A stretch of 22,160 nt of DNA from a virus, in the IMG/VR virus record IMGVR_UViG_3300030109_004175, positions 1-22,160 of that record; one strand, 5' to 3'. A model generated the notes under the pieces. That model was given only the letters and a program-made list of their open reading frames with translations, searched no databases and was not told where the DNA came from. Numbering within the stretch: the stretch's first letter is position 1; each line of letters opens with the position of its first letter. Shown here one piece after another: positions 767-21,488 of the stretch. A program made the translations under genes and the position numbers.

Positions 767-1588
767 CTATGCAGTTGTGTTCCCTGCATAATCCATTGAT
801 ATTCCTTGCACCCATGTTTCAGATTCTGTGCTATAGTTATCTATACCAGATGTAAACCCACTTGGTCCGGTTACTGTTACCTGAACAGTAGACATTGCAG
901 CCGTAGCACCAGAAGGCCCAGATGATGTGAAATCTTCGGAATTCCAGAATGCGACATTTGCTTCTCGTATAATCTTCGATGTTTTTACTGGTCCGTACAC
1001 ATAAGACTTTGCGATAAATTGGTAATCTGTAATAATACTTCGTCGAGCATCAAAATCTCCTTCATAATCTTCATTTAAAGTGGATGACTGTAATATAATT
1101 GGAACATCTACTTTTGTGTGGAGAGAAGTCATGTTCAGGGAAACATTAAATTCTGGTGTAAAGTACGGTAATATTTGTTCTGTAATTTGAAGTGCATCAT
1201 CCATGTGTCGAACCATCGCAGATAACTGGAATGAAAAGTTATAAGGAACTTCAGCATAATCATATGAAATTGGAGCGGAACCAGTTACACCAGAGGTAGT
1301 ATGAAACTTATTCATGGTGTTTCTTTTTCTCTGGGAATCATAATCAATTCCGGTTATTTCAAAAGCCAAACGAGGTAAAGTGATTTCGGTTTTAGGTCCG
1401 TCGCTTATTGAACTTCTTTCGTATATTCTTCTTAAGAATTTTTCCTTTGGACCGTAAGAAATGGGAACTTTAATTTTTTCTTTTGTTGTTCCGTCAGCAT
1501 TCTTTCTTGTGATGTAAATATCATTAAACATTGAACCGAATGCAATTACTAAATTTCTAACAGAGTTGTGATAAAATGTTTCGAACAT
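767..1588 (-). CDS. 15: Tail completion and sheath stabiliser protein gp15
   Basis: gp15 forms the hexameric tail terminator that caps sheath and tube and joins the tail to the neck. The product has 273 residues (T4 gp15 is about 272). Family hallmarks seen are the N-terminus MFETFYHNSVRN followed by FGSMFNDIYITR, the segment KVPISYGPKEKFL (40-52), and MDDALQITEQILPYFTPEFN (129-148), which closely parallels the T4 EQILPYF region. The last 50 residues are Gly/Ser/Thr-rich, with two GPSG motifs, and end in an unusual WVQGISMDYAGN tail. I do not recognise that tail in T4. The start overlaps the gp14 stop as TGATG, with GGAGG at 1599-1603, so translation is probably coupled to gp14. Confidence 0.94.
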   Translation of the reverse strand: MFETFYHNSVRNLVIAFGSMFNDIYITRKNADGTTKEKIKVPISYGPKEKFLRRIYERSSISDGPKTEITLPRLAFEITGIDYDSQRKRNTMNKFHTTSGVTGSAPISYDYAEVPYNFSFQLSAMVRHMDDALQITEQILPYFTPEFNVSLNMTSLHTKVDVPIILQSSTLNEDYEGDFDARRSIITDYQFIAKSYVYGPVKTSKIIREANVAFWNSEDFTSSGPSGATAAMSTVQVTVTGPSGFTSGIDNYSTESETWVQGISMDYAGNTTA

Positions 1589-2535
1589 CAGATGTCACCC
1601 TCCGAAAATGGATCTGTGTCTGTAAAGTCAAATATGGAATCACCCTGCAATTCGAAATCGTCTGCGTCGTCGAACGCATCTGCAATAACAATTGTAGGTG
1701 TAGACAAGGATCCTGTTTTTCCGGTAACATAAAATGCATTGGAACTGTTACCAGTAACACCTGCCGTCCATCCTGTATGTCCTCCGATGAATCCTGTAGA
1801 ACCGGAAGGTCCTGCAACAGTGAGTAGCATATATCCTGTCCCCTCTGGTCCTGCTGTGCCACCTGTCGCCCATGATTGAACTGTTGCATACCAACTTGCA
1901 CTGGAACCATCGGTTCCAAACCCTTGTGAACTTTGATAGACTACTTCACCTATACTATAGTTTCCACTTGCAGATGCTCCTCCGGTTAGATAGACATAGA
2001 ATGATTCTTGTTCTTCTATACCTACTACCTTATCAACATCAGTAAACCCAGTATCGAAATCTTCTTGACTATACTCGAAGAGTTCGCATGAAAGTTTGTA
2101 TGTGTATAGTTTTCCTAATTGATAGAATGGATTTTCATGTTCTACAAATTTAATTTCAAACAAACCTTTAGATAGAGGAAGGTAGATTAAATCGCCTTCT
2201 CTTGGTCTAATTATGGTTGATTCATGAGATAGATTTTTTTCAAATACTTTTTTCGAGACAATAAATTCAACCGTGTCTTTAATTTGAATGCCAAACTTAG
2301 AAGCAAAATCTCCCTCTCCTTCAAATCCATCGACACTTGAGATATACATTTCAATGTTAATCCCTTGTTCGAATTTGGAGATGGTGTCTTCTCCGAACAA
2401 AAAGTCTTTGTTTACCAATGTTCTTGGTATGTAGATGACATCATGACCATACATCCGAATCGCTTCGATTGTAATGTCTTCTACCAGATTCTGTTCTGAT
2501 TTTACTTGATGTCTAAAAAACTTATTTGTTGCCAT
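1588..2535 (-). CDS. 14: Neck protein gp14 with an internal insertion
   Basis: gp14 is a neck protein that works with gp13 to close the filled head and receive the tail. The N-terminal 170 residues match T4 gp14: IRMYGHDVIYIPRTLVNKDF (26-45), FGED, SSVDGFEGEGDF, FGIQIKDTVEF, REGDLIYLPLSKGLFEIKFV (112-131) and NPFYQLGK. The end is also gp14-like, acidic and finishing in DPFSEGDI. T4 gp14 is about 256 residues and this product has 315. The surplus is a Gly/Ser/Thr-rich block at about residues 175-282 that resembles modules in gp7 and gp8 of this phage (see findings). The start at 2535 follows the gp13 stop as TGATAAATG. The identity is secure, and the role of the insertion is unknown. Confidence 0.94.
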   Translation of the reverse strand: MATNKFFRHQVKSEQNLVEDITIEAIRMYGHDVIYIPRTLVNKDFLFGEDTISKFEQGINIEMYISSVDGFEGEGDFASKFGIQIKDTVEFIVSKKVFEKNLSHESTIIRPREGDLIYLPLSKGLFEIKFVEHENPFYQLGKLYTYKLSCELFEYSQEDFDTGFTDVDKVVGIEEQESFYVYLTGGASASGNYSIGEVVYQSSQGFGTDGSSASWYATVQSWATGGTAGPEGTGYMLLTVAGPSGSTGFIGGHTGWTAGVTGNSSNAFYVTGKTGSLSTPTIVIADAFDDADDFELQGDSIFDFTDTDPFSEGDI

Positions 2536-2538
2536 TTA

Positions 2539-3282
2539 TCAACCTACCATGAAGTCAGGAGGAAGTTCATACATGAGTTGTACATTTTCCTCAATTTTAT
2601 CAATCTCTACTTGAGCCCTTTCCATGATTTCTCTTCCATTAAATGATACTCCACCCGGCAATTGAATTCCCTCAAACTTAGACAAGTTAGAACCCCATTG
2701 TCTTCTAAACAGTTCAGTCACATATCTTTTTAGTAGTCTATCATTATAAATTTCTGTAAATGTCTCTGGGTCGAGAACAGCGTATGCTTCTGCAACCAAG
2801 TAATCACCAACAGTTACTTCTTCACTCCAGTCCATATCAACCTTTAGTCTGTTTGTGACTCTACTAAATCTAATAGATTTTTCTGGCGAAAGAATATCTT
2901 GAATTAAAGATAAGTGCCTTTTTGTTATGTCATATTGTACCATAGATTGATTGGGATTTCTTAGTCCGTAGAAATCATTTAAAGCCATTTGATACCTAAC
3001 ATCAAATAGATTTATAGTTCCTTCACTGAATTGAAATAGTTTAGTGACAGATATAACACTATCGTCCACCGTGATATATTCGTTGTCTATATCATCTTGT
3101 GTCACGACATGCTTTAAATAAGTTTTTTCAACTCCGTCAAAATGATATTCCGCAAAGAACTGTAACGCATCGTCAATCCTATCTTCCAGTTGAGCATCAT
3201 CTACATTAATTTCAATAACTGGTGCGCCAAGTCTTCTGAGAGCGTATTCTTTTAGTGTTGCTCTTGATGTTGGTTTTGCCAT
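2539..3282 (-). CDS. 13: Head completion / neck protein gp13
   Basis: gp13 is the head-completion protein that docks on the portal after packaging and binds gp14. Both ends match the T4 protein clearly: LKEYALRRLGAPVIEINVDD near the N-terminus, then EYHFDGVEK; and near the C-terminus LPGGVSFNGREIMERA, ending in LPPDFMVG (T4 ends in a similar PP-F-LVG). At 247 residues it is shorter than T4 gp13 (about 309), with the loss in the middle, as expected for compact relatives. It starts 51 bases after the preceding small gene, the widest gap in the window, with a clear AGGAG at 8-base spacing. It is followed at once by gp14. Confidence 0.95.
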   Translation of the reverse strand: MAKPTSRATLKEYALRRLGAPVIEINVDDAQLEDRIDDALQFFAEYHFDGVEKTYLKHVVTQDDIDNEYITVDDSVISVTKLFQFSEGTINLFDVRYQMALNDFYGLRNPNQSMVQYDITKRHLSLIQDILSPEKSIRFSRVTNRLKVDMDWSEEVTVGDYLVAEAYAVLDPETFTEIYNDRLLKRYVTELFRRQWGSNLSKFEGIQLPGGVSFNGREIMERAQVEIDKIEENVQLMYELPPDFMVG

Positions 3283-3333: not shown

Positions 3334-3615
3334 TCATCCATTGTCAGCATTAGATTCTTCGTCCAACTGCAATTGTTTTTCCAGAAATTTCAATTCTACT
3401 ATGGATTTAATATATCTGTCACCATCCGGCCAAGGGAATTTATCACCGACTTGATTTTTTCCATTGTTTAAATAGTGTTTTCTGTTTTGAATATACATTC
3501 GACTCCACCCCTCTGGAGTATTATAATCAGGATCAAATTGTTTTATAATTTTTTCATCAAACTGAATTCCGTCAATTTCAACGACGCCGTTCTGCTTGTG
3601 ATAAAAATAACTCAT
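3334..3615 (-). CDS. Small protein of unknown function before gp13
   Basis: I do not recognise this 93-residue product. It begins MSYFYHKQNGVVEIDG and continues with an aromatic, charged middle (FDPDYNTPEGWSRMY) and an acidic, helical-looking C-terminus rich in Glu, Leu and Gln. There is no signal peptide or membrane segment. The frame extends upstream to a TTG at 3630, but the ATG at 3615 is chosen because it overlaps the preceding stop as ATGA, the coupling pattern seen elsewhere here. It lies between a fibre-type gene and the neck genes, so a virion or assembly role (for example chaperone or adaptor for its neighbour) is possible. That is inferred from position only. Confidence 0.75.
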   Translation of the reverse strand: MSYFYHKQNGVVEIDGIQFDEKIIKQFDPDYNTPEGWSRMYIQNRKHYLNNGKNQVGDKFPWPDGDRYIKSIVELKFLEKQLQLDEESNADNG

Positions 3616-5780
3616 CCTGGTAATATCCAATTTGGTCTAAATGACAATCCTGAATTCTCACAAACATAAAAATCTTGTTCATACCAATCACTATATGATC
3701 CATCATCATTACAATTTCCACCCTGACATTCAAATCCTCCGCCTGGCCTTGCTATGGACGGTATTCCCCCTGTGCATCCTCCAGGACAAGTAAGACAGTA
3801 ATCGCACGATGAATCTTGAAGTTCTTCCCACTTCCATCTAGATCCTCCATATCCAAAATATGAATAATTATTACCATTCCACCACCAAAATCCAAAATAT
3901 TGGTGAGGATAAGTACCGTCACCATAAAACCATTTACAATCTGGAAGGGAGTTTGGATTACTGGGTGGCCACAATGCGTAACATTCGTTGTCATAATTAT
4001 CATATAAATCATCGTTCACAAAAAACGGTGCTTCGTAGAAATTTCCCCAAGTTTCGTCAAATTTATATTGTATAATTCTTTGCTCTAAGTGATCTTGATA
4101 ATTCCAATAGTTGTCAAAGGAAACTTTATCCGAGTCTATCACCTTCAGGACATTTGTTCCTTCCTCTTGACGAAAAACTGTTATACCTTCTCTATTATAT
4201 GATGCTTGGGGACAGAATTTTCTAGAAGAATTAAGCAACCACATTAGATTGTGTCTGTTTGTTATTACTAATGTGACATCCTTATGAGGCATACCTGTAC
4301 TTTTTAAATTTTGGGCCCATTCTGTTTGCCCGTATATATCACAGCAACCACCATCTCCATATAGTGCATTGTTCCATTGGTATCTTTGACTCGAACCCCA
4401 AGAACCAGGATTATCAGGATCTGAGTCGTTGTCATAATCATAATTGTAATTCATGAAGTATGAATAAAAACTGTTCAGTCCATTCTGGTAGTCTAGGGTG
4501 TATCCAGTATCAAATTTACACGCCACATGACTTCCTTCATTTTCTACATTTAAATCAACAGCAGATCCTAGTGGTGCTTTCATTGCTCCTACTGTGTGGT
4601 AATACATCTTTTGTGTTTGACCTGGATCTCCAGGGCTATAGTTTGAATACCAACCTGTACCCCCAGATGTTCTTGAGGTATATCCATATGTTGCTTGTTC
4701 TTGGTGATCGTTCATTGAAGGAATATAAAATCTTCCCCCAACGATGTCTCCGTATAACAAATCTCCATTTTCTTTTGATGTCATCCACCCTTCTCTTGCA
4801 TCATATCCACTGCTGGCTTCGCCAAAATCTTTTACAAGTGTCCAAGAAGAAGTACCGGAATTATATCCGTCTGCACCAGAATTCCAAGAACTGCTACCTG
4901 AAAGATAGTCTGGAATTTTAATTCCAGAATCCAAAGAGTCTAATCTCAATAACATTCTTCTATGATCTTGGTTTAGGTTTCCCCCTCCCTGCGGCCAGGG
5001 GCCTCCAGTTGGAGTGGAACAGGTCATTATCAAAATATTTTTATATGCATCTGTGTCGTTATAGTCTGGAGAATCTTTTGGAATGCTTGTAATACCAACT
5101 ATGTTGCCTGGATAGAAATCTCTGGAATCATTCTCCGAAGACCCGTCGTTACTTGCACCACCATCTTGTGTACCCGGCTTCAAAATCAATCTAGACCAAA
5201 CTTTAGGTGTCACCGTTCCGTCATCGTTTATTTTGTTTGCGTGTAATATTACTCTGGCGTATGTGTCTTCAATTGTAGAATTTCCATCCGACCGAATATC
5301 TCCCGGTTCATCTGGCATTCCATCGGTGTTTGTTTGCGAACCGTCTGGATTAGTGAATGCTTCTGGATAAATATCTTGAGCATCTGGATAAACAGTTTCT
5401 GTTATTAGAAATGTGTCCCTAGAAACGAAATGTAAATTTCCATATCTAACATTTGCAGTATACTGATCGTATATCGGTTTACCATCAGAACCGAGTGTAT
5501 TCATAGCATCAAATATTTCCTGTCTTGAAACTTTTCTGCTGTTATGATCAAATGTTAATTTGTAAAGTTTATTTGATTTGTTTTTTGTTTCACTTGATGT
5601 GCTGTCAAATCTCCAGTATCTTCTCCAACTATATGACTGATCCGCTGAATCGTAAAAGAGATAAAGGAATGCTTCATAATACCTAACAGTTCCCTGCCAG
5701 TAATAAACTTCTGGAGTTCCTGTTTCTGCGTCCGATTTCCAACCGAAACCGGATTTCAAGTTGGGACCTTGTCCTAGCAT
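3612..5780 (-). CDS. Large Trp/Tyr/Cys-rich protein in the fibre region, unknown; candidate adhesin
   Basis: This 722-residue product matches no family I know. It is rich in Trp, Tyr, Gly, Asn, Asp and Ser and looks like an all-beta extracellular-type protein. It has 14 cysteines, most of them in the last quarter, including a CDYCLTCPGGC cluster, then ECQGGNC and VCENS. No signal peptide or membrane segment is visible. Aromatic runs such as FGFWWWNGNNYSYFGYGG suggest carbohydrate contact. An ATG at 5825 is also in frame but has no SD and would overlap the upstream gene by 41 bases. The ATG at 5780 follows that gene's stop by 4 bases (TAGTATCATG), so it is preferred. Lying between the collar fibre and the neck genes, where T4 has gp12 and wac, it could be a distal fibre, receptor-binding or decoration protein. 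This is inference. Confidence 0.8.
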   Translation of the reverse strand: MLGQGPNLKSGFGWKSDAETGTPEVYYWQGTVRYYEAFLYLFYDSADQSYSWRRYWRFDSTSSETKNKSNKLYKLTFDHNSRKVSRQEIFDAMNTLGSDGKPIYDQYTANVRYGNLHFVSRDTFLITETVYPDAQDIYPEAFTNPDGSQTNTDGMPDEPGDIRSDGNSTIEDTYARVILHANKINDDGTVTPKVWSRLILKPGTQDGGASNDGSSENDSRDFYPGNIVGITSIPKDSPDYNDTDAYKNILIMTCSTPTGGPWPQGGGNLNQDHRRMLLRLDSLDSGIKIPDYLSGSSSWNSGADGYNSGTSSWTLVKDFGEASSGYDAREGWMTSKENGDLLYGDIVGGRFYIPSMNDHQEQATYGYTSRTSGGTGWYSNYSPGDPGQTQKMYYHTVGAMKAPLGSAVDLNVENEGSHVACKFDTGYTLDYQNGLNSFYSYFMNYNYDYDNDSDPDNPGSWGSSQRYQWNNALYGDGGCCDIYGQTEWAQNLKSTGMPHKDVTLVITNRHNLMWLLNSSRKFCPQASYNREGITVFRQEEGTNVLKVIDSDKVSFDNYWNYQDHLEQRIIQYKFDETWGNFYEAPFFVNDDLYDNYDNECYALWPPSNPNSLPDCKWFYGDGTYPHQYFGFWWWNGNNYSYFGYGGSRWKWEELQDSSCDYCLTCPGGCTGGIPSIARPGGGFECQGGNCNDDGSYSDWYEQDFYVCENSGLSFRPNWILPG

Positions 5781-7809: not shown

Positions 7810-8139
7810 TCAATCGTAAATTACACAATGGATGAACGCGGGATTTATTGCCGAACCACCGGCATCTTCTGCTCGTACACCAAATGTATTTCCGTGTCTT
7901 CCGAAAATACTTGCGATTCCTTCATTTCCTGCGGTGAGTTCTGCTGTTACTTGAACACAATATCCTGTTTTTCCGAGGTTGTGTGTAACATGCCAAACAC
8001 CCTCGTTCGCCTTGGACGATGCAATGACACCAGTTCCTACAATCTGATCGGTTACAATACCCGATGCAGCCGTTCCATTGAATGTAATTGCATGTCTTGG
8101 TCCAACACCCGTTACTTGTCTAGCACTCTGATCACCCAT
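7810..8139 (-). CDS. Small free-standing fibre-tip-like beta domain protein
   Basis: This 109-residue product has a Gly/Ala/Thr-rich start and a beta-type core GVWHVTHNLGKTGYCVQVTA, then NTFGVRAEDAGGS and IHCVIYD. The core pattern (GV-aromatic, TH, Tyr-x-Val, then an F/V-rich strand and a short C-terminal strand) parallels the last 65 residues of the adjacent 472-residue fibre (GVYGITHDFATAEYSVSI). It therefore looks like a separately encoded copy of that fibre's C-terminal domain. No signal or membrane segment is seen. It starts one base after the upstream stop (TAATATG), so the two are likely co-translated. It may be a tip or decoration subunit of a fibre. That is inferred from similarity by eye. 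Confidence 0.78.
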   Translation of the reverse strand: MGDQSARQVTGVGPRHAITFNGTAASGIVTDQIVGTGVIASSKANEGVWHVTHNLGKTGYCVQVTAELTAGNEGIASIFGRHGNTFGVRAEDAGGSAINPAFIHCVIYD

Positions 8140-8140
8140 A

Positions 8141-9559
8141 TTAGTTTACCGCCTTCGCTAAGATTACTTCTATCGCATTTGCTGTCAATGTATTTGAACC
8201 ATTATAAACATTTATTGTCACATAATTATTACTCTTGGTGTTTACATTAGCAAACATCGCATTTGATCCTGCAACCGGAGCAATTGAAACAGAATATTCA
8301 GCAGTTGCAAAGTCATGAGTAATACCATAAACTCCAGTTGAAGGAGAATGGGATGTCAAGTCACTGTTTCCGCTGTCTTTGCTTCCGTCTGATGCAATTG
8401 AAATTCTACGCATCATTGGTGCCATGGTGTCAACTTCTGGTGCGATTTTTGCTCCAACATAGGATAGAACATATCCTGCCGTCGGACCAAATCCAATCAA
8501 CATTGGTTTTCTAATTTTACCTGCTGTTGCTGGTTCTTGATTTGTTACTTCTCCACTATTTCCTTGTGTTCCGCTTAGGAAATAAACTCCACCCGGAGCA
8601 AGTGTTGAACCGGCAGCACCACTTGCGACACCCAGTCCATTAGAGAAATCTCCTCGGATTTCTCCCTGCATTGTAACAACAAATTGGTTTGCGTTTGGAA
8701 CTTCAGATATAATGCCAAGAACTTCAGCATCTGCTTCCGAATTTCCATGTGCTGGTTGACATGTAAGACCATTTAATCTTACACACATTCCAAATGTAAA
8801 TCCGTGACTTGCGTGTGTAAACAGTTTCTTATTTACACCATCATAAATTCTAACCAACCCATCTTCGTCGAAATAGATTCCTTGAGTTATAGCGGCACTT
8901 GCAGTGGACATATGACCAATTTTCATTGCTTTTTGGCTATAAGATTGTCCCATGATACCAGCAGTTGCAACTGTGCTTACCATAAGTCCCGCACCAGTTG
9001 CATTTACACCAGATTTAAATCTCAAAGTATCATCAGTGGATTTAAGTCCAACTCCACCTGTGAGATTAATATAATCGGTACAAGTCCATGCACCAGAACA
9101 ACCAACTCCAAGCGTGTTAAATGTTAAACTTCCGCTTCCGGTTGTAATTCCACCCCACAAAAACGATGCATCTGCTCCGTCTTTTCTCTTTAATATAACA
9201 CCGCCACCACCACCAGAGTCAATGTGAACATCTGCTGTACCATTTCCGTTTTCTACATCACCTAATACTATATTGTAATCATCTATTGTTAGATTTGTAG
9301 AATTTACCGTAGTTACACTTCCGTTAAATACAACATTTCCGGTAAATGTGATTCCATGAGGAATTGTCTTGGCTATACTTACTGTCGCAAGACCACTTGT
9401 GGATTGTGATACATCAATTCCGGTTCCGGCGGTAACAGCATATGTTGATATGTTGTTTAGTTTCGCAATAATAGAATTATTGGAAACAGTCAACCACTCA
9501 TGGAATGTGTCACCGAGAACTAAATTTGGTATTTGATATGTGTTAGTTTCAACGCCCAT
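8141..9559 (-). CDS. Modular tail fibre / virion structural protein
   Basis: This 472-residue fibre-type protein is predicted to be all-beta and is Gly/Ser/Thr/Asn-rich. The N-terminus (IPNLVLGDTFHEWLTVSNNS) has the look of the attachment segment of T4 gp9/gp10-type proteins. Residues 66-102 (TFTGNVVFNGSVTTVNSTNL and TIDDYNIVLGD) are a motif common in marine phage structural proteins. Residues about 247-372 form the THASHGF...GEI...VYFL...IRKPML module also found at the start of the 670-residue fibre. Residues 408-470 form a terminal domain that resembles the next gene. The start overlaps the preceding stop (TAATG), with AAAGG a few bases upstream, which implies translational coupling. It probably forms a fibre linked to the baseplate, and its exact T4 counterpart is unclear. 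Confidence 0.85.
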   Translation of the reverse strand: MGVETNTYQIPNLVLGDTFHEWLTVSNNSIIAKLNNISTYAVTAGTGIDVSQSTSGLATVSIAKTIPHGITFTGNVVFNGSVTTVNSTNLTIDDYNIVLGDVENGNGTADVHIDSGGGGGVILKRKDGADASFLWGGITTGSGSLTFNTLGVGCSGAWTCTDYINLTGGVGLKSTDDTLRFKSGVNATGAGLMVSTVATAGIMGQSYSQKAMKIGHMSTASAAITQGIYFDEDGLVRIYDGVNKKLFTHASHGFTFGMCVRLNGLTCQPAHGNSEADAEVLGIISEVPNANQFVVTMQGEIRGDFSNGLGVASGAAGSTLAPGGVYFLSGTQGNSGEVTNQEPATAGKIRKPMLIGFGPTAGYVLSYVGAKIAPEVDTMAPMMRRISIASDGSKDSGNSDLTSHSPSTGVYGITHDFATAEYSVSIAPVAGSNAMFANVNTKSNNYVTINVYNGSNTLTANAIEVILAKAVN

Positions 9560-9798
9560 TATTCATTTACCTTTAAAATATCTTTAATCTCATTTAGTAT
9601 AGATTTCAACTCTTGAACTTCATCTCTAATCTTATTTATTTCATTTTCGTTGCTTATAATTTTATTATTTCTTTCTTTTTTCAACAACCATGATTTCTTT
9701 TCTTCTATATCAGTTTTCAAAATTGCTTTTGAGTGGTTGTCTCGAACAATGTCGTTTCTATTTTCTATGAGTGTTGTATTTTTCATTCTATTATCCAT
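9559..9798 (-). CDS. Small coiled-coil protein between baseplate and fibre genes
   Basis: The product is 79 residues, highly charged and lacks Gly-rich beta sequence, unlike its neighbours. The first half holds RNDIVRDNHSKAILKTDIEE. The second half (NEINKIRDEVQELKSILNEI) has leucine/isoleucine spacing of a coiled coil. I have an impression of similar short genes beside fibre genes in marine T4-like phages, but no named function. The ATG at 9798 overlaps the stop of the giant upstream gene by 8 bases. An ATG four codons later (9786) is an alternative. It is coupled to the following fibre by TAATG. A fibre-assembly chaperone or a trimerisation or attachment adaptor is plausible from size and place, but this is not shown. 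Confidence 0.75.
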   Translation of the reverse strand: MDNRMKNTTLIENRNDIVRDNHSKAILKTDIEEKKSWLLKKERNNKIISNENEINKIRDEVQELKSILNEIKDILKVNE

Positions 9799-12700
9799 TC
9801 AGTGCAATTGTTCTGAAATCCTTTATTGAAGGAACTTTTGTCGTAGAAGAACTATATAAACAAATTTTAATCGCAAATGTTTTTATTGGTTTATCAAAAT
9901 TAGAACTTAGTGAGAAAACCGATTCGGTGAAGTCATAATTATTAGATGAGTTAGGAATGGCTACATCTTCTGTCATCTGTGTGTACGGAACATCTTCGAA
10001 TGGAGTTGTGTCCTCTTCTGCAAGTGGTTTGATAAACACCTGAATAGTTGCTTCAGCAGGTTTGTTTACAGACATCAGCACTTTAAAGTTACTAGATTCA
10101 AATCCATCTGAAAGTGTGACTCTTCTAGTTATGTATCTCGCCGCAGAACCAGCCGCTTCTTGTCCTTCATATAAGGAATCGTCGGTTGAATTTGCATTCG
10201 GATTTAATTCTCCGTTCTTGGTGGTATCTGTGCTGTTGTTAACAGTGTTATTTACACTTATCAAATCCAAACGCTTTGTGTCGATTATTGGAGAAACAAA
10301 AGCGTTTGATGTAGTCATAGTTGTATTTACCAAGAAATCTGAAGTTGATGTCATTCTTTGTGGTGATTCTAAATATAGGTTTTCGTTTGCAATGATTCCT
10401 ACATTTGAAATACCACCCAAAGTTGTTAGCGAATGTGAAATATTGGTATTTCTTGGAGTGTATTCTCCAGAAGCAATTTTAATAAGATCGGAAGTAATTC
10501 CACTTGAACCTACTTGCTCTGTAAATTCATCTGACGGGATGTTGATTTCCACTGAACCGTTGGTGGAGAACGAACAGGCATTTATTCTATACTTTAAACT
10601 GTCCGCAGGATTCGAAGAAGCAATTCCTGAGTTTTGAGGTATGAATAATGTACCATCGTGTGGTTGTTCTGAAATGACACCACCGGAATTTAAATCTGCC
10701 GCTCCGATTGTTCCACTATACAGATTATAGGATTGACTGCTCGTCCTCAGACAGAATGCATATTCTCCAGGACTTAGATGAACAGGTGTATCAAATTTAA
10801 ACCTAGTGTAAGTTTCATCAACAGGATAGTCTTCTCTTACTTCAGATGGGAGGGGTATCAAGGAAATACTAGAGAAGGGAACCACTTTAGACAAGTGAGG
10901 ATATCCATTTATTGTTGGTCGTATTTCCAGTGTGATGGGTACATTTTGATCTATTCGTTGGAAGAATAAATCTATACTTTCCAAGAATATACCGTCTGTC
11001 CATATGTTATTATTTACAGTGAATGTCTGTGATAAAGGATCTGACCATAAATTGTTTTCGTTTGTGGCAATATAAACATCTCTATCAAATGCATCTCTTA
11101 CAATTGAGTTGTCATTCACTACTTGTCTTCTTGAAACAATAGGTCTAGTAGACGCCAAGGTTCCGTCTAATTGATTTACGATTCCCTGTGCATAATAAAT
11201 CCCGTCCGCAGCCGTAGTTGTTTGGGATAAGTCATCCATAGAACTATCTGTTAATCTAAAGAGTCTTTCTCCAGACTTGTATGAGTTTTGAGGTATTGAG
11301 AAGAATGCATTTCTAATATCTCCACTCGGACCCGTAACTAAGGAATCACCAGAAGCACCACCATCTGGACCACAACTTGCCGAAACATTTACACCATCGA
11401 ATATTGGATGAACTGTAGTATTCGGTTTCATTCCATATGCACTGAATTTAATTGTTCTCGAACGAATATAAGGAACAACGCTCACATCTACAATTCTATT
11501 GTTTACAAGTTTCTCTAACCGTTCGGGCAATCTTCTAATTCTTATTCCAGATCTACCCTCATGATTTTTTAGCGTTTCTGTAGAACGAATAGATGAATCT
11601 TCTGCTACTGATATTCTCTGTTCAATGTCTGCGGTGAGAGATGTTGTCCTGAAGTCACTTAAGAAATCTCTACCTCTGTTGCTATACAGGTCGCTCTCTG
11701 TTACATTTCTTCCAGACCACAGAACTTCCCAATCATTCCATTGAGTTCCGAATCCATGTGATGTAGATTCGTTCGTTACTTTCCACCTATCGTTTTCTCC
11801 CTGACTGTTAATTTTAACTACAGGTTTAGAGGATTGGTCGTACCAATTATCGAATGGATCATCAAAATCAACATAACCCATGAACGAAGGAACATTAGCA
11901 GGATTTACTGAAACAAACTGACTTGCAAATGGTTGCCATACGAATTCATTGTATCTGCTATAGTCTAATGTTATAATTCCATTTTTACTGATGGTAATTC
12001 CAGAATTTGCTCCAGTTCCTAATGAGAGACTGTTGCTTGTGAATGACGGCCTTAAATGTCCGTTTTCATAATCAATCGAACAGACATAATCTTTATTGAG
12101 GACATCTCCAACCGAGTGTCCTCTGAACGCATCTACCATAATTCCGTTTTTGAAGATATCATCACCGGAAGAATCTACAAATGATCTTGCTTCTGTTTGC
12201 TGTTCGAGTAAAGACAAACTTGTGTAATATTCTAAAGTTTGTACTCTCTTCTCAATCGAGCCAATGTCTCTCATTGTGTACCGTTTGTTTTCCACATATT
12301 GAGTATTGATGTCGTCTACATTGTATGTGTATGCGGGTACAGTTATTACATACAATGTCATTGCATCACTTCGGTCCGGCGGAGTTTGCGGATTTAGTGC
12401 AGGTATACCTGTAATTACATCAAATTTTCTTTCCTTAGTAAGAATAATTTTATCAACTCTTGACAAGTGATGTGAGTATGTTGCTCTAAAATCGGATGAA
12501 CTTTTCGGACTCAATCCATCTGGTTTTATAGTTCCATCGGATTGTGCTGTACCACGGAAATCAATACAGTTTCTTAGAGAATAACTCTTTCCTGTATTTG
12601 GACTGGTATATATTGGAATGTTGTCAAATGTAAATCCTGATGTCGGATGTGTATATGAATTTGCAATAAATGGTCCGTCTCCACTTTGGTGGTTGAAGTG

Positions 12701-14992
12701 ATCATATTTAATTGTCAAATTCATTGCGCCTGTAATTCCGTCATATCCCAAATCTGGTTTTAGATATAACCGCCCAAAGTCATAATAATTATCTCTTTGT
12801 CCGTTGTCTAACAAGAATACACTCTTGACATCAGATGTTGACAATCCTGCTCTTGCTTGCACCGTTCCTTCATTATCAGTAATAGAAGTTACATTGATGA
12901 TGTCACGATAACTTAGAGGAATATAGTATGCTCCAGATTCACCGTCAAAACTTACGGTTTCTCCATTAGCCGCTCTTGAGAATGTTTCTTCTCTTGCATT
13001 GAACCTTGTTTTGTTTCTTTTTCTCACACTGCTTGATACAGTCGCCAATAGTGTATATGTTCCTGGCGTTAATGGGAAATTCGTATCAGAGTCTCCGATT
13101 GTTAGAGATTGTCTGTCGGAAGATAATACAAATTTAACCTTATCTGTGTCTACTCTTTCCCCTGTAAATCCAGCCGATGCAGTTCCACCTTCTTGGCAAA
13201 TTAAGGTATAATGAGTTTTCTTACTCTGTTGTTGCATTTCATTTGAGGTGGTATCTGTAATATCACCAACAAAAGTCAAATCGGATTGTCCAGTGCTTAT
13301 TGTTTGTGTTGATGACCAATCTGAGGATGCTAAAGTAAATCCTTTATATATCGTATATGAAAGTGTATCAACGGAGTTGATTGAATTTCCAATCGGAAGA
13401 GGGAAAATTGATGCATTGAATCCAGGATCAAAAAGTTTTGTCTTGGATGTTGCTCCCACTGTACCTCCTGTGGCAACAGAGAATCCTGCTGTTAAACTGC
13501 CTGCTCCGAGGTTTGTTCCACCGAATCCCGTAACATTGCCGAAAGCAGTCATTCCCCCAGTTCCGAGATTAACATCAAACAGATACATGTTGTATGACTG
13601 TCCGTAATTTGTAACTCCTGCTGTGTCGTTGTTTGGGATTATTTGACGAACCCTAGCAGTTCCGGTTTTCCCTCCACTGTCCGTTAGGAGGATTTTAGGA
13701 TATTTGTCAATCAGAACATCGAATCCACCCGTCAGTGATCCCGCCGCAGTTGACCTTACTTTTGCGTATGAACCAAATCTTACATCCTGTACTTGTTTGT
13801 TCGTCAGTGTTTCTGTTGTTCTTGCTTTGTCTACAAGAACATATTCTGTTCCTTGTGTTTCCAGTTCATATCCGAAAACATATGCCTTTCCTGCTTCGAG
13901 TCCTATCGCAGCCTTTGTTTCTGTTCCACCTGAATCCGAATCGAAAACATCTAAAGATTCTCTAATGTCAATCTCAAAGGGTTTTGTTGTATAGGAACCA
14001 GATTCGTCATAAGTTCTTCTTGCTAGAGTTTTTTCAATTTCAGAATACTCACTATATTCTGTTGTTGATTGTAATTTTCCATCAACGAATCGAAGCAAAT
14101 CAATAAAGTCTGCGTCTGTGAATCCACTTGCGCCATATGAAGAGTCATTCACAAAGTTTTTGAAGTCAATGTTTAGGTTTACTTGATATCTATCTGCTCC
14201 TGGCGCATTGTAGTTATATGTTCCCGATGCAGGATCTCGCAATGTGTAGTCATCTGTGTGTTCTACTATTTCCTTTTTAACATTAAATCCAATTCTGCTC
14301 GTTGGGTTATTGAACCAACGAATGTTCGAAGAAGATCCTGTCATTGCAAATGGTGATGTGGACTGGTAGTCTGCTTTAACAAACTGACCATCTATGAAGA
14401 AAATTCCATTAGCAATTGTTGTAAGTTTTGCTGTACCAGTTACACCATCTACAACTGTAGCATCTGTATCTGGTTGCGCTACGGATGATGCAACTTTTGC
14501 AAAATATGTCACATCACCAGTTGTTCCTTTGATTACAGCATTATCGCCCCATTGTGGTCCTGCACCACTACCACCATCCATATACTGAACCATTAATATT
14601 GGGTAGTTGTCGTTGCTTGATGTGGAACCAGTTATGCCGTAAAGAACCTTCGCCCTTCGAGTATCATTTGTGGCGGGTTGATTTGTAGTGACTTCCGTTC
14701 CAATAAGCCCTTCGACATTTACATCTTGAGTTTGGTTTGATGGATCATTGGGGAGTAGTCTCAAAAATGTGATATCTTGTGTACTAAGTTCTCCACCAAG
14801 AACCCTAGAGCCATTTTTAAATACATGGCCACCCATCTTTTTCAATTGATCAGAAACTATCGTTTGGAGTTGAGTAAGTTCTCTTGCTTGAACTGCTCTG
14901 CCAGGGCGAAATAACATTCTGAGGAATTTTTTATCCTCATCAAAATCATCCCAGTACGGGTCAGTATTAAAAAGTGTTGCGCTGTATACCAT
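9791..14992 (-). CDS. Giant DUF4815-type virion structural protein (baseplate/fibre base)
   Basis: At 1733 residues this is the largest gene here. The N-terminus (YSATLFNTDPYWDDFDEDKK, then LFRPGRAVQARELTQLQTI) and the helical signature RYTMRDIGSIEKRVQTLEYY (near residue 905) match what I know as the DUF4815 family of phage structural proteins. The first 600 residues are beta-rich, with Gly/Thr blocks. From about residue 1310 (SDPLSQTFTVN) to the end lies a separate beta domain with LTLEIRP-like and SPGEYAFCLRT segments. In T4 this interval holds gp9 and gp10, so it probably replaces them at the baseplate rim and anchors fibres. No direct T4 similarity is visible. AGGAG overlapping the gp8 stop supports the start. 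Confidence 0.88.
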   Translation of the reverse strand: MVYSATLFNTDPYWDDFDEDKKFLRMLFRPGRAVQARELTQLQTIVSDQLKKMGGHVFKNGSRVLGGELSTQDITFLRLLPNDPSNQTQDVNVEGLIGTEVTTNQPATNDTRRAKVLYGITGSTSSNDNYPILMVQYMDGGSGAGPQWGDNAVIKGTTGDVTYFAKVASSVAQPDTDATVVDGVTGTAKLTTIANGIFFIDGQFVKADYQSTSPFAMTGSSSNIRWFNNPTSRIGFNVKKEIVEHTDDYTLRDPASGTYNYNAPGADRYQVNLNIDFKNFVNDSSYGASGFTDADFIDLLRFVDGKLQSTTEYSEYSEIEKTLARRTYDESGSYTTKPFEIDIRESLDVFDSDSGGTETKAAIGLEAGKAYVFGYELETQGTEYVLVDKARTTETLTNKQVQDVRFGSYAKVRSTAAGSLTGGFDVLIDKYPKILLTDSGGKTGTARVRQIIPNNDTAGVTNYGQSYNMYLFDVNLGTGGMTAFGNVTGFGGTNLGAGSLTAGFSVATGGTVGATSKTKLFDPGFNASIFPLPIGNSINSVDTLSYTIYKGFTLASSDWSSTQTISTGQSDLTFVGDITDTTSNEMQQQSKKTHYTLICQEGGTASAGFTGERVDTDKVKFVLSSDRQSLTIGDSDTNFPLTPGTYTLLATVSSSVRKRNKTRFNAREETFSRAANGETVSFDGESGAYYIPLSYRDIINVTSITDNEGTVQARAGLSTSDVKSVFLLDNGQRDNYYDFGRLYLKPDLGYDGITGAMNLTIKYDHFNHQSGDGPFIANSYTHPTSGFTFDNIPIYTSPNTGKSYSLRNCIDFRGTAQSDGTIKPDGLSPKSSSDFRATYSHHLSRVDKIILTKERKFDVITGIPALNPQTPPDRSDAMTLYVITVPAYTYNVDDINTQYVENKRYTMRDIGSIEKRVQTLEYYTSLSLLEQQTEARSFVDSSGDDIFKNGIMVDAFRGHSVGDVLNKDYVCSIDYENGHLRPSFTSNSLSLGTGANSGITISKNGIITLDYSRYNEFVWQPFASQFVSVNPANVPSFMGYVDFDDPFDNWYDQSSKPVVKINSQGENDRWKVTNESTSHGFGTQWNDWEVLWSGRNVTESDLYSNRGRDFLSDFRTTSLTADIEQRISVAEDSSIRSTETLKNHEGRSGIRIRRLPERLEKLVNNRIVDVSVVPYIRSRTIKFSAYGMKPNTTVHPIFDGVNVSASCGPDGGASGDSLVTGPSGDIRNAFFSIPQNSYKSGERLFRLTDSSMDDLSQTTTAADGIYYAQGIVNQLDGTLASTRPIVSRRQVVNDNSIVRDAFDRDVYIATNENNLWSDPLSQTFTVNNNIWTDGIFLESIDLFFQRIDQNVPITLEIRPTINGYPHLSKVVPFSSISLIPLPSEVREDYPVDETYTRFKFDTPVHLSPGEYAFCLRTSSQSYNLYSGTIGAADLNSGGVISEQPHDGTLFIPQNSGIASSNPADSLKYRINACSFSTNGSVEINIPSDEFTEQVGSSGITSDLIKIASGEYTPRNTNISHSLTTLGGISNVGIIANENLYLESPQRMTSTSDFLVNTTMTTSNAFVSPIIDTKRLDLISVNNTVNNSTDTTKNGELNPNANSTDDSLYEGQEAAGSAARYITRRVTLSDGFESSNFKVLMSVNKPAEATIQVFIKPLAEEDTTPFEDVPYTQMTEDVAIPNSSNNYDFTESVFSLSSNFDKPIKTFAIKICLYSSSTTKVPSIKDFRTIALNG

Positions 14993-15007: not shown

Positions 15008-17297
15008 AAAATCCAATCATTACTTTGATTTCTTCATCTTGCTCAAGGTTTCTAGTAATAGGCCTTATATTCTGTATGTATAAGACTTCTCCAGAGCCAA
15101 CATTTATTTCTGGTTCAGTAATTCCAGTTATTGTATGATTTGTTGATCCGGAAAATCCACCAGCGATGAAAGTTCCTCTAACATCACTTAAATGTAATTC
15201 TCCGGTGTTTCCGTTGGTAGCAGACCAATTTACAATTTTTCCAGTAACTGTTCCTTGCGTTAAACCGGAGTCCAATGACACCTGATAAAATTTATCATCA
15301 TTTGTATATGATGACGAACTCAAACTTCCTGTTGAGTCCTGAATTATCAATTTTGATGTTGTTGAATAAGTCTTTTCTAGTGTATCTTCATCCTGAACAT
15401 CTGACAATCTGTTTGCCCTAACAATGCCCTGATGTCCTGCAAACGATTTAAATTCACATGTTACACCTTCTCCACCTTCAAATTGTTTTATAAGTTCTCC
15501 CATTTTTCTTTCTACCACACCAGCCTCAGCCCAATCCACACCCGTTGCAGTTCCCTCTAAATTATACTCTACAAATTGTGGAGTTGCGGTAAAGGAATTG
15601 CTAGTTACATCAATTATCAATTCTCTGATATTACTATTCCACGAATGAACAGTTCCTGTGGCAGTTACATCGCCATTGACTTGTTTTACAGTATATCCCA
15701 CAGTCCAATTTCCTAAGTTACCAGTGGACAAAGGAGTAAACACAACTCTAACTAATTTTGATGCTGGATCTTCAGTTACGAAATTTCCCTGAACATTCGA
15801 CAATTTTAGCGTTCCCAAGGCTCCATTTATATCTGCATTCCATTCTTCAACTTTCCCTGTTGCTCTGGAAGTATCTCCTACTACTGTATTTCCAACAGTG
15901 AAAGCACTGCTTGTTAATGCTTGATCCATGTAGTATGGTCTATTTACCGATAATTGTTTCAACCTTGTAATTTCTGTTCCTGCCACCACACCTTCAGATG
16001 TTCCTCCTTTTAGTTTTGGATTTTTTACTATGGAGACTTGTCTGAATTGATTTCCACTTGGGAAATCTGTATCTGAACCTTTGAGAACAGACCTAATCAT
16101 AATTTTTGAAGCGTCAAGTTCCTTTATGATGTTACTGGCATGTCCATTATAAGGAGGAATAGAAGAACTAAATGTTGGTCCTGCAATATTGTCACTTCCT
16201 ATGTTTCCACCAGAAACTGATTTGGGAAAGACATCTACTTCTGCTATTGTATAATTTTTTCCTCTATTGATTATATTTAAGGATTTAATTTCATATCTCG
16301 AATTCAATAGAGGAACCGCATCAGCAGAAGAGCCGTCTCCATTTATTACAACATTAGGAATAATTTGGTATCTCGATCCTGCACTTCCATCTACTGGAGG
16401 AGAAACAGCAAATTCTAATCCTTCTGTAAAATAAACTCGTCTATCAGCAGGAACATAACTTGTGATTGTTCTTTTTTGTCCTACGCCGGGACCACTTGTG
16501 ATGTAAATCGAGTATCCCTTGTAGTAGTCTGTTTCTGTGCTTTCGGATGCCGGAAGAGTTATGTGTTTTTCGCCGACATTAGAAATGAGTGCAACTTCTT
16601 GATCAGCAAGTTCGGTGTTGGTTGAACTTTCTGAAGATTTTATCCATTGTGCTGCCGTTAGACTGGATACAGGAACAGTTGTTTTTATAGAATCTATTGC
16701 ACCAACAGTAGAATCTTGTTGAGCGTTCCATTGATTCAACATTGGTGGTGTGTTGTCATTGGCAAATTTTACAGGAATATAACTTCCGGTTGTAAAATCA
16801 GAGGCATCTTCCAGAACTTTACCCATAAACAACCACCTATATCCATCACTGGTGGTAACTACTGGAGTGTTAGTATGATCTGGTTCATATTGTGATGCGG
16901 CACCACCTGCATTTTCTATACATTTATATACATTACCAGTAGTGGTATGAACATAAAATGCGGTAGAACCGGAGTGTATGTTTGTTGTGTGATCATATTC
17001 GGGGTAAACTTGACCATATGTCCAATCTTGACGACTAATCATATGGTAAATATTTCTAGACGAAATTCTCTTTGCAACAACAGAATCTCGAAGTGCATAA
17101 TTATGCTTTTCTACAGAATCAACATTTGAGGGTGCATTCCCAGAGTCGTCTGCGTCAGCACCGTAAGGTTCGTTCACCCACGAATCAACTTTACCGAAGT
17201 AAAGAAAATATTGATTTGTGTTGTCGTTGTTAAAGTCATTTGCTAAATCTTCAGCAAACGAAATAGAAAATGATTTGTTCATAGCATCAGAAGCCAT
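15006..17297 (-). CDS. 8: Baseplate wedge protein gp8, enlarged by an internal repeat insertion
   Basis: gp8 is a baseplate wedge subunit. Ends and core match T4 gp8: FLYFGKVDSWVNE (31-43), HMISRQDWTYGQVYPEYD (85-102), VYKCIE (123-128), SDGYRWLFMGKV (150-161), FRQVSIVKNPKL (418-429), and the C-terminus SGEVLYIQNIRPITRNLEQD running on to VMIGF. T4 gp8 has 334 residues and this one 763. About 190 extra residues lie between the SDGYRW and FRQ motifs, and about 305 (430-734) lie between FRQ and the C-terminal strand. The second insertion contains three copies of a G-V-x-x-W ... L-x-L-S-x-V-x-G-x-F pattern. It starts 9 bases after gp7. The end motifs make the assignment strong, and the insertions are of unknown role. 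Confidence 0.93.
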   Translation of the reverse strand: MASDAMNKSFSISFAEDLANDFNNDNTNQYFLYFGKVDSWVNEPYGADADDSGNAPSNVDSVEKHNYALRDSVVAKRISSRNIYHMISRQDWTYGQVYPEYDHTTNIHSGSTAFYVHTTTGNVYKCIENAGGAASQYEPDHTNTPVVTTSDGYRWLFMGKVLEDASDFTTGSYIPVKFANDNTPPMLNQWNAQQDSTVGAIDSIKTTVPVSSLTAAQWIKSSESSTNTELADQEVALISNVGEKHITLPASESTETDYYKGYSIYITSGPGVGQKRTITSYVPADRRVYFTEGLEFAVSPPVDGSAGSRYQIIPNVVINGDGSSADAVPLLNSRYEIKSLNIINRGKNYTIAEVDVFPKSVSGGNIGSDNIAGPTFSSSIPPYNGHASNIIKELDASKIMIRSVLKGSDTDFPSGNQFRQVSIVKNPKLKGGTSEGVVAGTEITRLKQLSVNRPYYMDQALTSSAFTVGNTVVGDTSRATGKVEEWNADINGALGTLKLSNVQGNFVTEDPASKLVRVVFTPLSTGNLGNWTVGYTVKQVNGDVTATGTVHSWNSNIRELIIDVTSNSFTATPQFVEYNLEGTATGVDWAEAGVVERKMGELIKQFEGGEGVTCEFKSFAGHQGIVRANRLSDVQDEDTLEKTYSTTSKLIIQDSTGSLSSSSYTNDDKFYQVSLDSGLTQGTVTGKIVNWSATNGNTGELHLSDVRGTFIAGGFSGSTNHTITGITEPEINVGSGEVLYIQNIRPITRNLEQDEEIKVMIGF
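15138..15899 (-). repeat. Three diverged beta-module repeats inside gp8
   Basis: Within gp8, residues about 467-512, 532-575 and 671-720 follow one pattern: an aromatic plus VG start, then TGKVEEW / TGTVHSW / TGKIVNW, then LKLSNVQGNF / LIIDVTSNSF / LHLSDVRGTF. They are protein-level repeats with no obvious DNA-level identity, so they are old. Similar units occur in gp7 and gp14. Confidence 0.65.
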
Positions 17298-19523: not shown

Positions 19524-21488
19524 TCAATACCCACCATATCCACCACCACCACCACCACCACTGGATGAACTAGATGATGAACTGCTAGATGATGAACTGC
19601 TAGATGATGAACTGCTAGATGAACTGGATGATGTTCCGCTCGAAGTAACAGAAATGCTTGACTGTGAAATTGATGTTTTATAAGGATCATATGATTCTAC
19701 AGTAACCAAAAGTGAATTAGGATCAGCAACATCTATTACCAATATAGAACCTCTTTCCGACAGAATGTCTTTATTTGCAGGAACTGCATCTATCAGGAGG
19801 TTGGTGTTTTCTACAGATACTGGAGAAAAGGAATTTAAAGTAATAGTTCCTTTTTCATAATCAACATCACCAACATCAGATGAGATATAGTTCTTTGAAT
19901 CGGAAAGCCATTCATACATTCTAAGTTTTCCATTCCCATCATCATCTAAGTATGATGTGCATGTTGTACCATCATCTTTTTTGTATGTGAATCCAGTAGA
20001 TGATATTACAGGATGGTGTCCATCGTGTGGATGATAGAATGGGTTGTAGTATTTAATCGTATAGGTTTTATTTTCATTTATCGTCGGTGTGATTCTTCTC
20101 TGCATGACAACGGAAGTTTCATTTCCTAGTATCGATTCGTCGGAGTCATCAATTTCTTTGATAAACTTCGAATACCTAAAATTATTGCCAAACATTTCTA
20201 ATTTTGTGTTTTTGTATAGCATTATCTGTGCTTCTACTAAAGCCTTTAAGTCTGAAGCACTAATAGCAGTTTTATCTGCATCAAAAAATACATTCGATGA
20301 AACCTTTAAGTAAATATAGGTTGGATCGACAACATCAGGAACAACACTTACTACATTTTGTTCTTTGATTAAATTCTGTAAACTTATTTTCTCTTCGTTG
20401 TTTAGGAAACTAGAATTTGTAGGTTTTACCGAGACGAAAACTTTACCGTACTCTGGAGGATCGTTATCTTCTCCTCCCCAAACAAAAACATCAGATGCAT
20501 TTGTGTAGTTTGAAGAAATATATGACTTATAGTCGTTGACAGTGACATTTCTGTTTTGAGACTGATATGATTTTGGAGCATTGTTTTTAATAGAATCTAT
20601 ACTTTCCTTCGAAGAACCTCCATTTGATGATGTGACAATAGAGATACTAGAAAGATTTGAAATATTATTGGATGTGAATGCACTTGAATCTACATTACCG
20701 ATACCATTAGCATCCGACCCATTGGTGATTAAATATTCTACAACAACTAAGTTTCCGTCGTCCAGACCTTTTCCTAAAATTCCATCGCCAAAATAAATCT
20801 CATATTGTCCTGTCTCTGTTTCTTGTAGAAAATATACCTTGCTCGTAGAAGTTAATGCTGTAACATCAGATACCTCCAACCAAGAATCCGAATATCCGGT
20901 TGTATCAGTCTCTGATTTTTGAACCTTTACTAGAATTTTGCTTGTGTCTACATTATTCTCTGGTATTATAAATCTTTGAGTAGACATGTTATTGTCTTTT
21001 ACATAACTTGCAACTCTCCATGTTCCTTCTACAAGGGTAACATTTCTTGCAATTTTTTGTGTAGCATTAAGAACTTCAAAAGTTTCAATTTCAGTGTTGC
21101 TAAATGTATAAGACACACTGTCCTTTACTCCTTTAAAGTTAGTTCTTTTTGTGAGATATGTGGTTGTTTCGTCTGCATCATCTATTGTAATATCAACGAC
21201 TGCGGTTGATGCCATTTTTGATCTTGGTGTGTACCCCAAAGCCTTTGCGTGTGAAACCACAGAAGTTCTTTTTATTGCACTATCCAAGAACATTTCGTTC
21301 GCTAACATATTGTTGTAAAATCCCTGATAATGGGTGACATATGCCAATAAGTCCAACAATACCGATGTTCCGGATCCTTCAAAGTCAAAATCAGTAAATT
21401 CATCAAGACCACTGAGATATGATTTCAAATTATCTCGTATACCAAAAAAGTCTAAACTGTTTATTTCAATCTTTCTATTACTATTCAT
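19524..21488 (-). CDS. 6: Baseplate wedge protein gp6 with a serine/glycine tail
   Basis: gp6 forms the iris-like ring that joins wedges around the baseplate hub. The product has 654 residues (T4 gp6 is about 660). Its N-terminus shows the family pattern: INSLDFFGIRDNLKSYLSG (8-26), FDFEGSGTSVLLDLLAYVTH (34-53), NMLANEMFLDSAIKRTSVVS and AKALGYTPRS. The middle has GQYEIYFGDGILGKGLDDGN, shared with gp6/gpJ-type baseplate proteins. The C-terminus is odd: 24 consecutive serines (620-643), seven glycines, then YGGY. The ATG overlaps the gp25 stop (ATGA), and GGAGA (21496-21500) precedes it by 7 bases. Order gp25-gp6-gp7-gp8 indicates a compact wedge operon. Confidence 0.94.
   Translation of the reverse strand: MNSNRKIEINSLDFFGIRDNLKSYLSGLDEFTDFDFEGSGTSVLLDLLAYVTHYQGFYNNMLANEMFLDSAIKRTSVVSHAKALGYTPRSKMASTAVVDITIDDADETTTYLTKRTNFKGVKDSVSYTFSNTEIETFEVLNATQKIARNVTLVEGTWRVASYVKDNNMSTQRFIIPENNVDTSKILVKVQKSETDTTGYSDSWLEVSDVTALTSTSKVYFLQETETGQYEIYFGDGILGKGLDDGNLVVVEYLITNGSDANGIGNVDSSAFTSNNISNLSSISIVTSSNGGSSKESIDSIKNNAPKSYQSQNRNVTVNDYKSYISSNYTNASDVFVWGGEDNDPPEYGKVFVSVKPTNSSFLNNEEKISLQNLIKEQNVVSVVPDVVDPTYIYLKVSSNVFFDADKTAISASDLKALVEAQIMLYKNTKLEMFGNNFRYSKFIKEIDDSDESILGNETSVVMQRRITPTINENKTYTIKYYNPFYHPHDGHHPVISSTGFTYKKDDGTTCTSYLDDDGNGKLRMYEWLSDSKNYISSDVGDVDYEKGTITLNSFSPVSVENTNLLIDAVPANKDILSERGSILVIDVADPNSLLVTVESYDPYKTSISQSSISVTSSGTSSSSSSSSSSSSSSSSSSSSSSSSGGGGGGGYGGY
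19560..19631 (-). repeat. 15-bp tandem repeat encoding the poly-serine tail of gp6
   Basis: Three perfect copies of a 15-bp unit (plus strand GATGATGAACTGCTA) lie at 19573-19617, with degenerate flanks covering 19560-19631. Each unit encodes five serines with mixed codons (AGC AGT TCA TCA TCT). A GGT triplet repeat follows for the glycines (19542-19559). Confidence 0.9.

Follow-up and report, generated by a model that had tools for sequence, protein, structure and literature searches.

A published counterpart of the region analysed here is the host recognition cluster of pelagimyophages, a variable block rich in fibre genes that extends from VrlC to the neck genes (PMC7029224). For individual host-recognition proteins, the beta-propeller has precedents in the five-bladed propeller of the phi11 receptor-binding protein Gp45 and in the catalytic domains of endosialidases (PMC4901313), and the presence of iron in marine phage fibres has also been discussed (PMC11705849).

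Genomic context of gene Q

The analysed stretch of 22,160 nucleotides (the window) opens a virus record of 41,635 bp and carries the minus-strand structural genes of a T4-like myovirus. The label Q is used for the 722-aa putative host-recognition protein analysed here. The genes relevant to its context are as follows.

1588-2535, minus strand: gp14 (head closure Hc2), used for the reference tree
2539-3282, minus strand: gp13 (head-tail adaptor Ad2), the neck-side boundary of the cluster
3334-3615, minus strand: small orf98 homologue with a conserved ATG at 3615-3613
3612-5780, minus strand: Q, putative host-recognition protein, intact reading frame of 722 aa
5785-7797, minus strand: 670-aa short-tail-fibre-like protein with a Phage Tail Collar domain (PF07484), the upstream neighbour of Q
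7810-8139, minus strand: 109-aa protein (orf109) of the same gene cluster
8141-9559, minus strand: 472-aa fibre-like protein, also in this gene cluster; no protein family matched
9791-14992, minus strand: 1,733-aa DUF4815/phrog_358 protein, taken as the baseplate boundary of the cluster (VrlC position)

An in-frame ATG at 5825 would extend Q to 737 aa, but it is unlikely to be the start codon because the relatives begin at a methionine matching position 5780. The gene lies among fibre genes between the neck genes and the baseplate gene, which is assumed to be VrlC from its position and its DUF4815 domain, and it is more variable than the flanking structural genes. The sequence-only reading had placed Q between a collar fibre and the neck genes; this location is borne out, and the stretch corresponds to the published host recognition cluster, with which it shares the hypervariable block of fibre genes between a VrlC-type baseplate gene and the neck (PMC7029224). 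It differs in size, with ~6.5 kb and five genes compared to mean lengths of 44.6 kb in pelagimyophages and 34.2 kb in cyanomyophages (PMC7029224), and no counterpart of Q itself turned up in the collection of phage genomes searched.

The ATG of orf98 overlaps the stop codon of Q (ATGA), which suggests translational coupling of the two genes. Nevertheless, orf98 does not belong to Q exclusively, since it is also found where unrelated genes occupy the same slot. Across many marine myoviruses orf98 is conserved just upstream of gp13, whatever gene precedes it. Searches with its product gave no hit in the phage collection, PHROGs, or Pfam; the protein could be an assembly factor.

Two further features of the same record were observed outside the cluster. 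A 311-aa protein (record positions 35928-36863; 15928-16863 of locus L102) has a weak, below-cut-off match to a Concanavalin-A-like lectin (PF13385, E 1.9e-5) and may be regarded as a second host-binding candidate. In the window, a 654-aa protein (19524-21488) has a C-terminal serine run followed by glycines (19524-19633), and this stretch is encoded over a short tandem repeat with a 15-base period.

Composition and motifs of Q

Q has the highest aromatic content among the 14 window proteins compared (25 W, 57 Y, and 29 F, or 15.4% together; 2.6-13.7% in the other 13). Its 14 cysteines amount to 1.94%, compared with 0-0.85% in the neighbours except for orf109 (2 cysteines in 109 aa, 1.83%), and its Gly/Ala/Thr share is 20% versus 30-37% in three fibre-type neighbours. 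Both cysteines (7 within 60 residues, P=0.001) and aromatic residues (10 within 18 residues, P=0.02) are clustered above the level of same-protein shuffles. The composition on which the sequence-only reading had remarked, rich in aromatics and cysteine and poorer in Gly/Ala/Thr than the fibre-type neighbours, was thus reproduced. The following elements were mapped on Q.

5691-5741, minus strand: N-terminal motif GWxxDxxGxPExYYWQG, residues 14-30, conserved in the alignment (residue positions converted by arithmetic)
4335-4346, minus strand: CCDI of the CCDIYG motif, residues 479-482, from the family alignment
3711-3899, minus strand: C-terminal variable insert, residues 628-690, with the FGFWWWNGNNYSYFGYGG run and the CX2CX2CX3C cluster
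3627-3653, minus strand: C-terminal conserved motif around GLSFRPN, residues 711-717

A restricted family of Q relatives

No match to Q was found in PHROGs or in a phage collection of ~50,700 genomes, and sequence searches of Pfam, NCBIfam, and PDB returned chance-level matches only. An isolated, weak TetR match (E 0.13) was dropped as chance, as were an OAA-lectin match (E 0.0037) and a GTA spike fibre match (E 0.0098), each obtained with one family member only. When viral contigs were scanned with patterns from Q alone, there were no hits, and one GTDB scan detected no relative.

Relatives were recovered with gp13 as bait. Among the 80 loci obtained, 22 contigs contain a clear Q relative and one more contains a C-terminal fragment. 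The relatives, from ~22 IMG/VR contigs and ~14 lineages, belong to one clade, and another three scans, run with alignments of subfamilies, brought in no new contigs; as the search relied on short conserved patterns and stored contigs, the breadth of the family is possibly underestimated by these counts. In every contig that is long enough, the relative is flanked by the Collar-domain gene immediately upstream and by the orf98 homologue, followed by gp13, downstream. Family members range from ~463 to 722 aa, with L025 as the compact 463-aa relative, and share the motifs GWxxDxxGxPE near the N terminus, FISRD, EGW, CCDIYG, REG, and the C-terminal SGxSFRPN. In the family alignment, C479 is kept in 15 of 17 sequences and D481 is almost invariant, and every member carries the GLSFRPN-type motif close to its C terminus, with minor substitutions.

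Beyond this clade, six large records from more distantly related phages gave no match to the Q profile, and no convincing Q-like gene was identified among the ORFs of other loci. In such phages, the position before orf98 is taken by a different, unrelated gene, its protein mostly 600-740 aa long. The presence/absence comparison proposed in the sequence-only reading therefore gives a divided picture: unrelated genes occupy the locus outside the clade, but within it a homologue is always in the slot. Judged from these searches, the Q family appears to be small, new, clade-restricted, and fast-evolving.

Rapid evolution and exchange of Q within the clade

Identity to the window proteins is 29-47% for Q, compared with 82-97% for gp13 and 75-90% for gp14. 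The dN/dS ratios are 0.17-0.54 for Q (seven pairs) versus 0.00-0.13 for gp13, and intermediate to high for the neighbouring fibre genes, the values for more distant pairs being rough due to saturated dS. Q is the fastest-evolving gene of the region. The differences among relatives include length changes in addition to substitutions.

These rates bear on the possibility that Q is a structural accessory, such as a neck whisker, a collar fibre, or a baseplate decoration, that makes no contact with a receptor. The gene does adjoin gp13/gp14 and the Collar-domain gene and is putatively coupled in translation to orf98. However, the neighbouring gp13 and gp14 evolve far more slowly and with lower dN/dS, and the slot holds unrelated genes beyond the clade; an accessory role is thus unlikely.

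The phylogeny of Q conflicts with that of gp14. In the Q tree, L002 and L013 are joined (support 100/100) and a grouping of the window with L002 is rejected (AU test, p 1.3e-4), whereas the gp14 tree joins the window with L002 (100/99) and rejects L002 with L013 (p 3.8e-5). The tested clades were picked after quick trees, which makes these p values somewhat too favourable; the conflict is strong all the same. It shows that Q has been exchanged within the clade, between close relatives. The sequence-only reading had proposed a laterally acquired host-specificity protein. Q indeed evolves like a host-specificity gene, but a foreign origin was rejected, since all through the clade this slot is filled by a homologue, and the exchange has taken place among close relatives. 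With regard to retroelement-driven variation, an RVT_1 search of the 41.6-kb record and eight related records, which may all be incomplete, found no reverse transcriptase. As for clues to the host, neither a psbA-type gene nor a CsgG gene was detected in the records examined, which again may be incomplete.

Predicted structure of Q

A single-sequence prediction of Q was useless (pLDDT 30). The model built with 18 relatives is all-beta, with a pTM of 0.74 and a mean pLDDT of 58.7; 269 residues have a pLDDT of at least 70, 315 of the 722 residues fall below 50, and the Cys-rich C-terminal insert is mostly in the latter range. The strands are grouped in fours, which we read as approximately five blades, with the motif at residues 14-30 taken to be the first of the blade-like repeats. 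Profile comparison revealed no sequence repeat between the proposed blades, and comparison of the whole profile with itself returned nothing.

Foldseek searches of the model against PDB and BFVD gave no significant match: the best PDB match had an E value of 0.24, probabilities among the matches listed did not exceed 0.11, and TM-scores were low. In the list of 50 PDB matches, the ones with a TMq of at least 0.12 include arabinanase, sialidases, XusB, glucose dehydrogenase, RAG2, and integrin alpha heads. The proteins at this TMq level are known beta-propellers, with the exception of 9y6s_5g, to which no fold was assigned. The model makes a beta-propeller the probable fold of Q. The claim that the protein is unrecognised holds in every library tried, and the remote homology check, including Foldseek on the predicted structure, yielded no confident match to a known fibre family.

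Gp45 of the Staphylococcus phage phi11 is a host-recognition protein, the role proposed for Q, and is of similar size (~636 aa); its platform is a five-bladed propeller, with a triple-helical stem on the N-terminal side and tower domains on the C-terminal side (PMC4901313). Q, by contrast, starts directly with the putative propeller (the strands of the model begin by residue 14-25) and has Cys-rich loops; no stem or coiled coil of the Gp45 kind was seen, as the model has no long helix. No sequence match between the two was found, and the propeller of Q is a prediction of low significance.

The same structural matches raise the possibility that Q is a receptor-destroying or glycan-trimming enzyme, a tailspike hydrolase on a propeller scaffold like the phage endosialidases or arabinanase-type glycosidases. 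Arabinanase and sialidases are among its best whole-length matches, the endosialidases of K1F and phi92 are likewise propeller-bearing host-surface proteins, and the conserved acidic residues D17, D122, E330, and D481, which would line the centre, come from four different blade-like segments. However, these matches are not significant, none of the 18 members has a Pfam or NCBIfam glycosidase match at E values up to 10, and the acidic residues are not all strict (E replaces D17 in L010, and N replaces D122 in L014 and L017). In contrast to the endosialidases, Q has neither a glycosidase-family sequence match nor demonstrated enzymatic residues, and we consider a hydrolase quite unlikely.

Q could also be a non-virion cargo or regulatory gene in a hypervariable region, similar to the metabolic genes upstream of gp13 in marine myoviruses; the cultured Pelagibacter phage Mosig has oxygenase and bilin-reductase genes at this place. 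Yet Q has no enzyme family match, is predicted to be all-beta and loop-rich with diversifying loops, and lies in a tight operon with fibre genes, which makes such a function very improbable.

Cysteine-rich loops

The WWW run and CDYCLTCPGGC are both located in the variable insert at residues 628-690, the letters of which are common to no relative. Its cysteines are C659, C662, C665, and C669, which form the cluster, plus C685 and C690. The spacing C659-X2-C662-X2-C665-X3-C669 (CX2CX2CX3C) is that of ferredoxin-type [4Fe-4S] sites, although the proline that follows the fourth cysteine in such sites is replaced by threonine in Q. This spacing arose in none of 5,000 shuffles of whole Q and in 0.15% of shuffles of its C-terminal 80-residue segment. 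None of the relatives has the motif, and the cysteines found family-wide are those of CCDIYG and a few others. The cluster is particular to the window's copy and not to the family.

Cys-dense loops are also present in family members L013 and L019. Among the other forward-strand ORFs of the fetched loci, the exact spacing was found only in putative fibres with 53-55 cysteines (L032/L074 and L034); similar proteins with 57 and 59 cysteines (L031 and L038) lack it. These putative fibres of related marine myoviruses (L032:4445-7486, L031:4294-7482, L038:4300-7452, L034:2-2581) lie two genes before orf98/gp13 and have most of their cysteines in one stretch (17 per 60 residues). No Pfam match was found for the L032 and L031 proteins, and no phage-collection match for the L032 copy. 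They resemble Q in their position near gp13 and, in L032/L074 and L034, in the CX2CX2CX3C spacing, but their Cys domain is much larger and the remainder looks unrelated, with no match to the Q profile. A more distantly related phage carries the incomplete ORF L069:19863-20750 (at least 296 aa, 21 cysteines, no Pfam match), which lies ~9 kb downstream of gp13, beyond a portal-like gene.

Of the cysteine cluster pointed out in the sequence-only reading, the presence, including CDYCLTCPGGC, stands; it is limited to this copy, though Cys-rich loops recur in host-recognition-region proteins of related phages. Because such loops recur, they may have a role on the outer surface of the virion, where disulfides could form after lysis, or may bind metal, as has been discussed for iron in marine phage fibres (PMC11705849). 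As a long shot, unrelated host-recognition proteins of marine T4-like phages might have gained small Cys-rich modules (CX2CX2CX3C and related) that are reduced in the cell and, with disulfides or iron acquired after lysis, would form a rigid receptor-binding knob.

Proposed role of Q

We favour, with a probability of roughly 0.6, the reading of Q as a virion receptor-binding (adhesin) head of the host recognition cluster, likely a beta-propeller with variable loops, because of its cluster position, synteny, fast evolution, exchange, all-beta model, and the phi11 Gp45 precedent; we infer the propeller fold, the virion location, and the receptor binding alike. The phage is an uncultured marine T4-like (Kyanoviridae-like) myovirus, of which Q would be a virion protein. 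The conserved core (~430 aa) would most likely form the propeller, perhaps with five blades, and the C-terminal SGxSFRPN strand would serve to close it or to anchor it. The large loops, which vary in length and include the C-terminal insert rich in aromatics and cysteine, would point towards the host, and they would diverge quickly through point substitutions, insertions, and exchange among closely related phages.

The analysis places in a family a protein that is absent from the libraries searched. If confirmed, the repeated occurrence of Cys-rich loops would be surprising in proteins that are put together in the reducing cytoplasm. Q is the likely host-range gene in this clade of uncultured marine phages, and the way in which the clade shifts its host specificity can be tested clearly through it.
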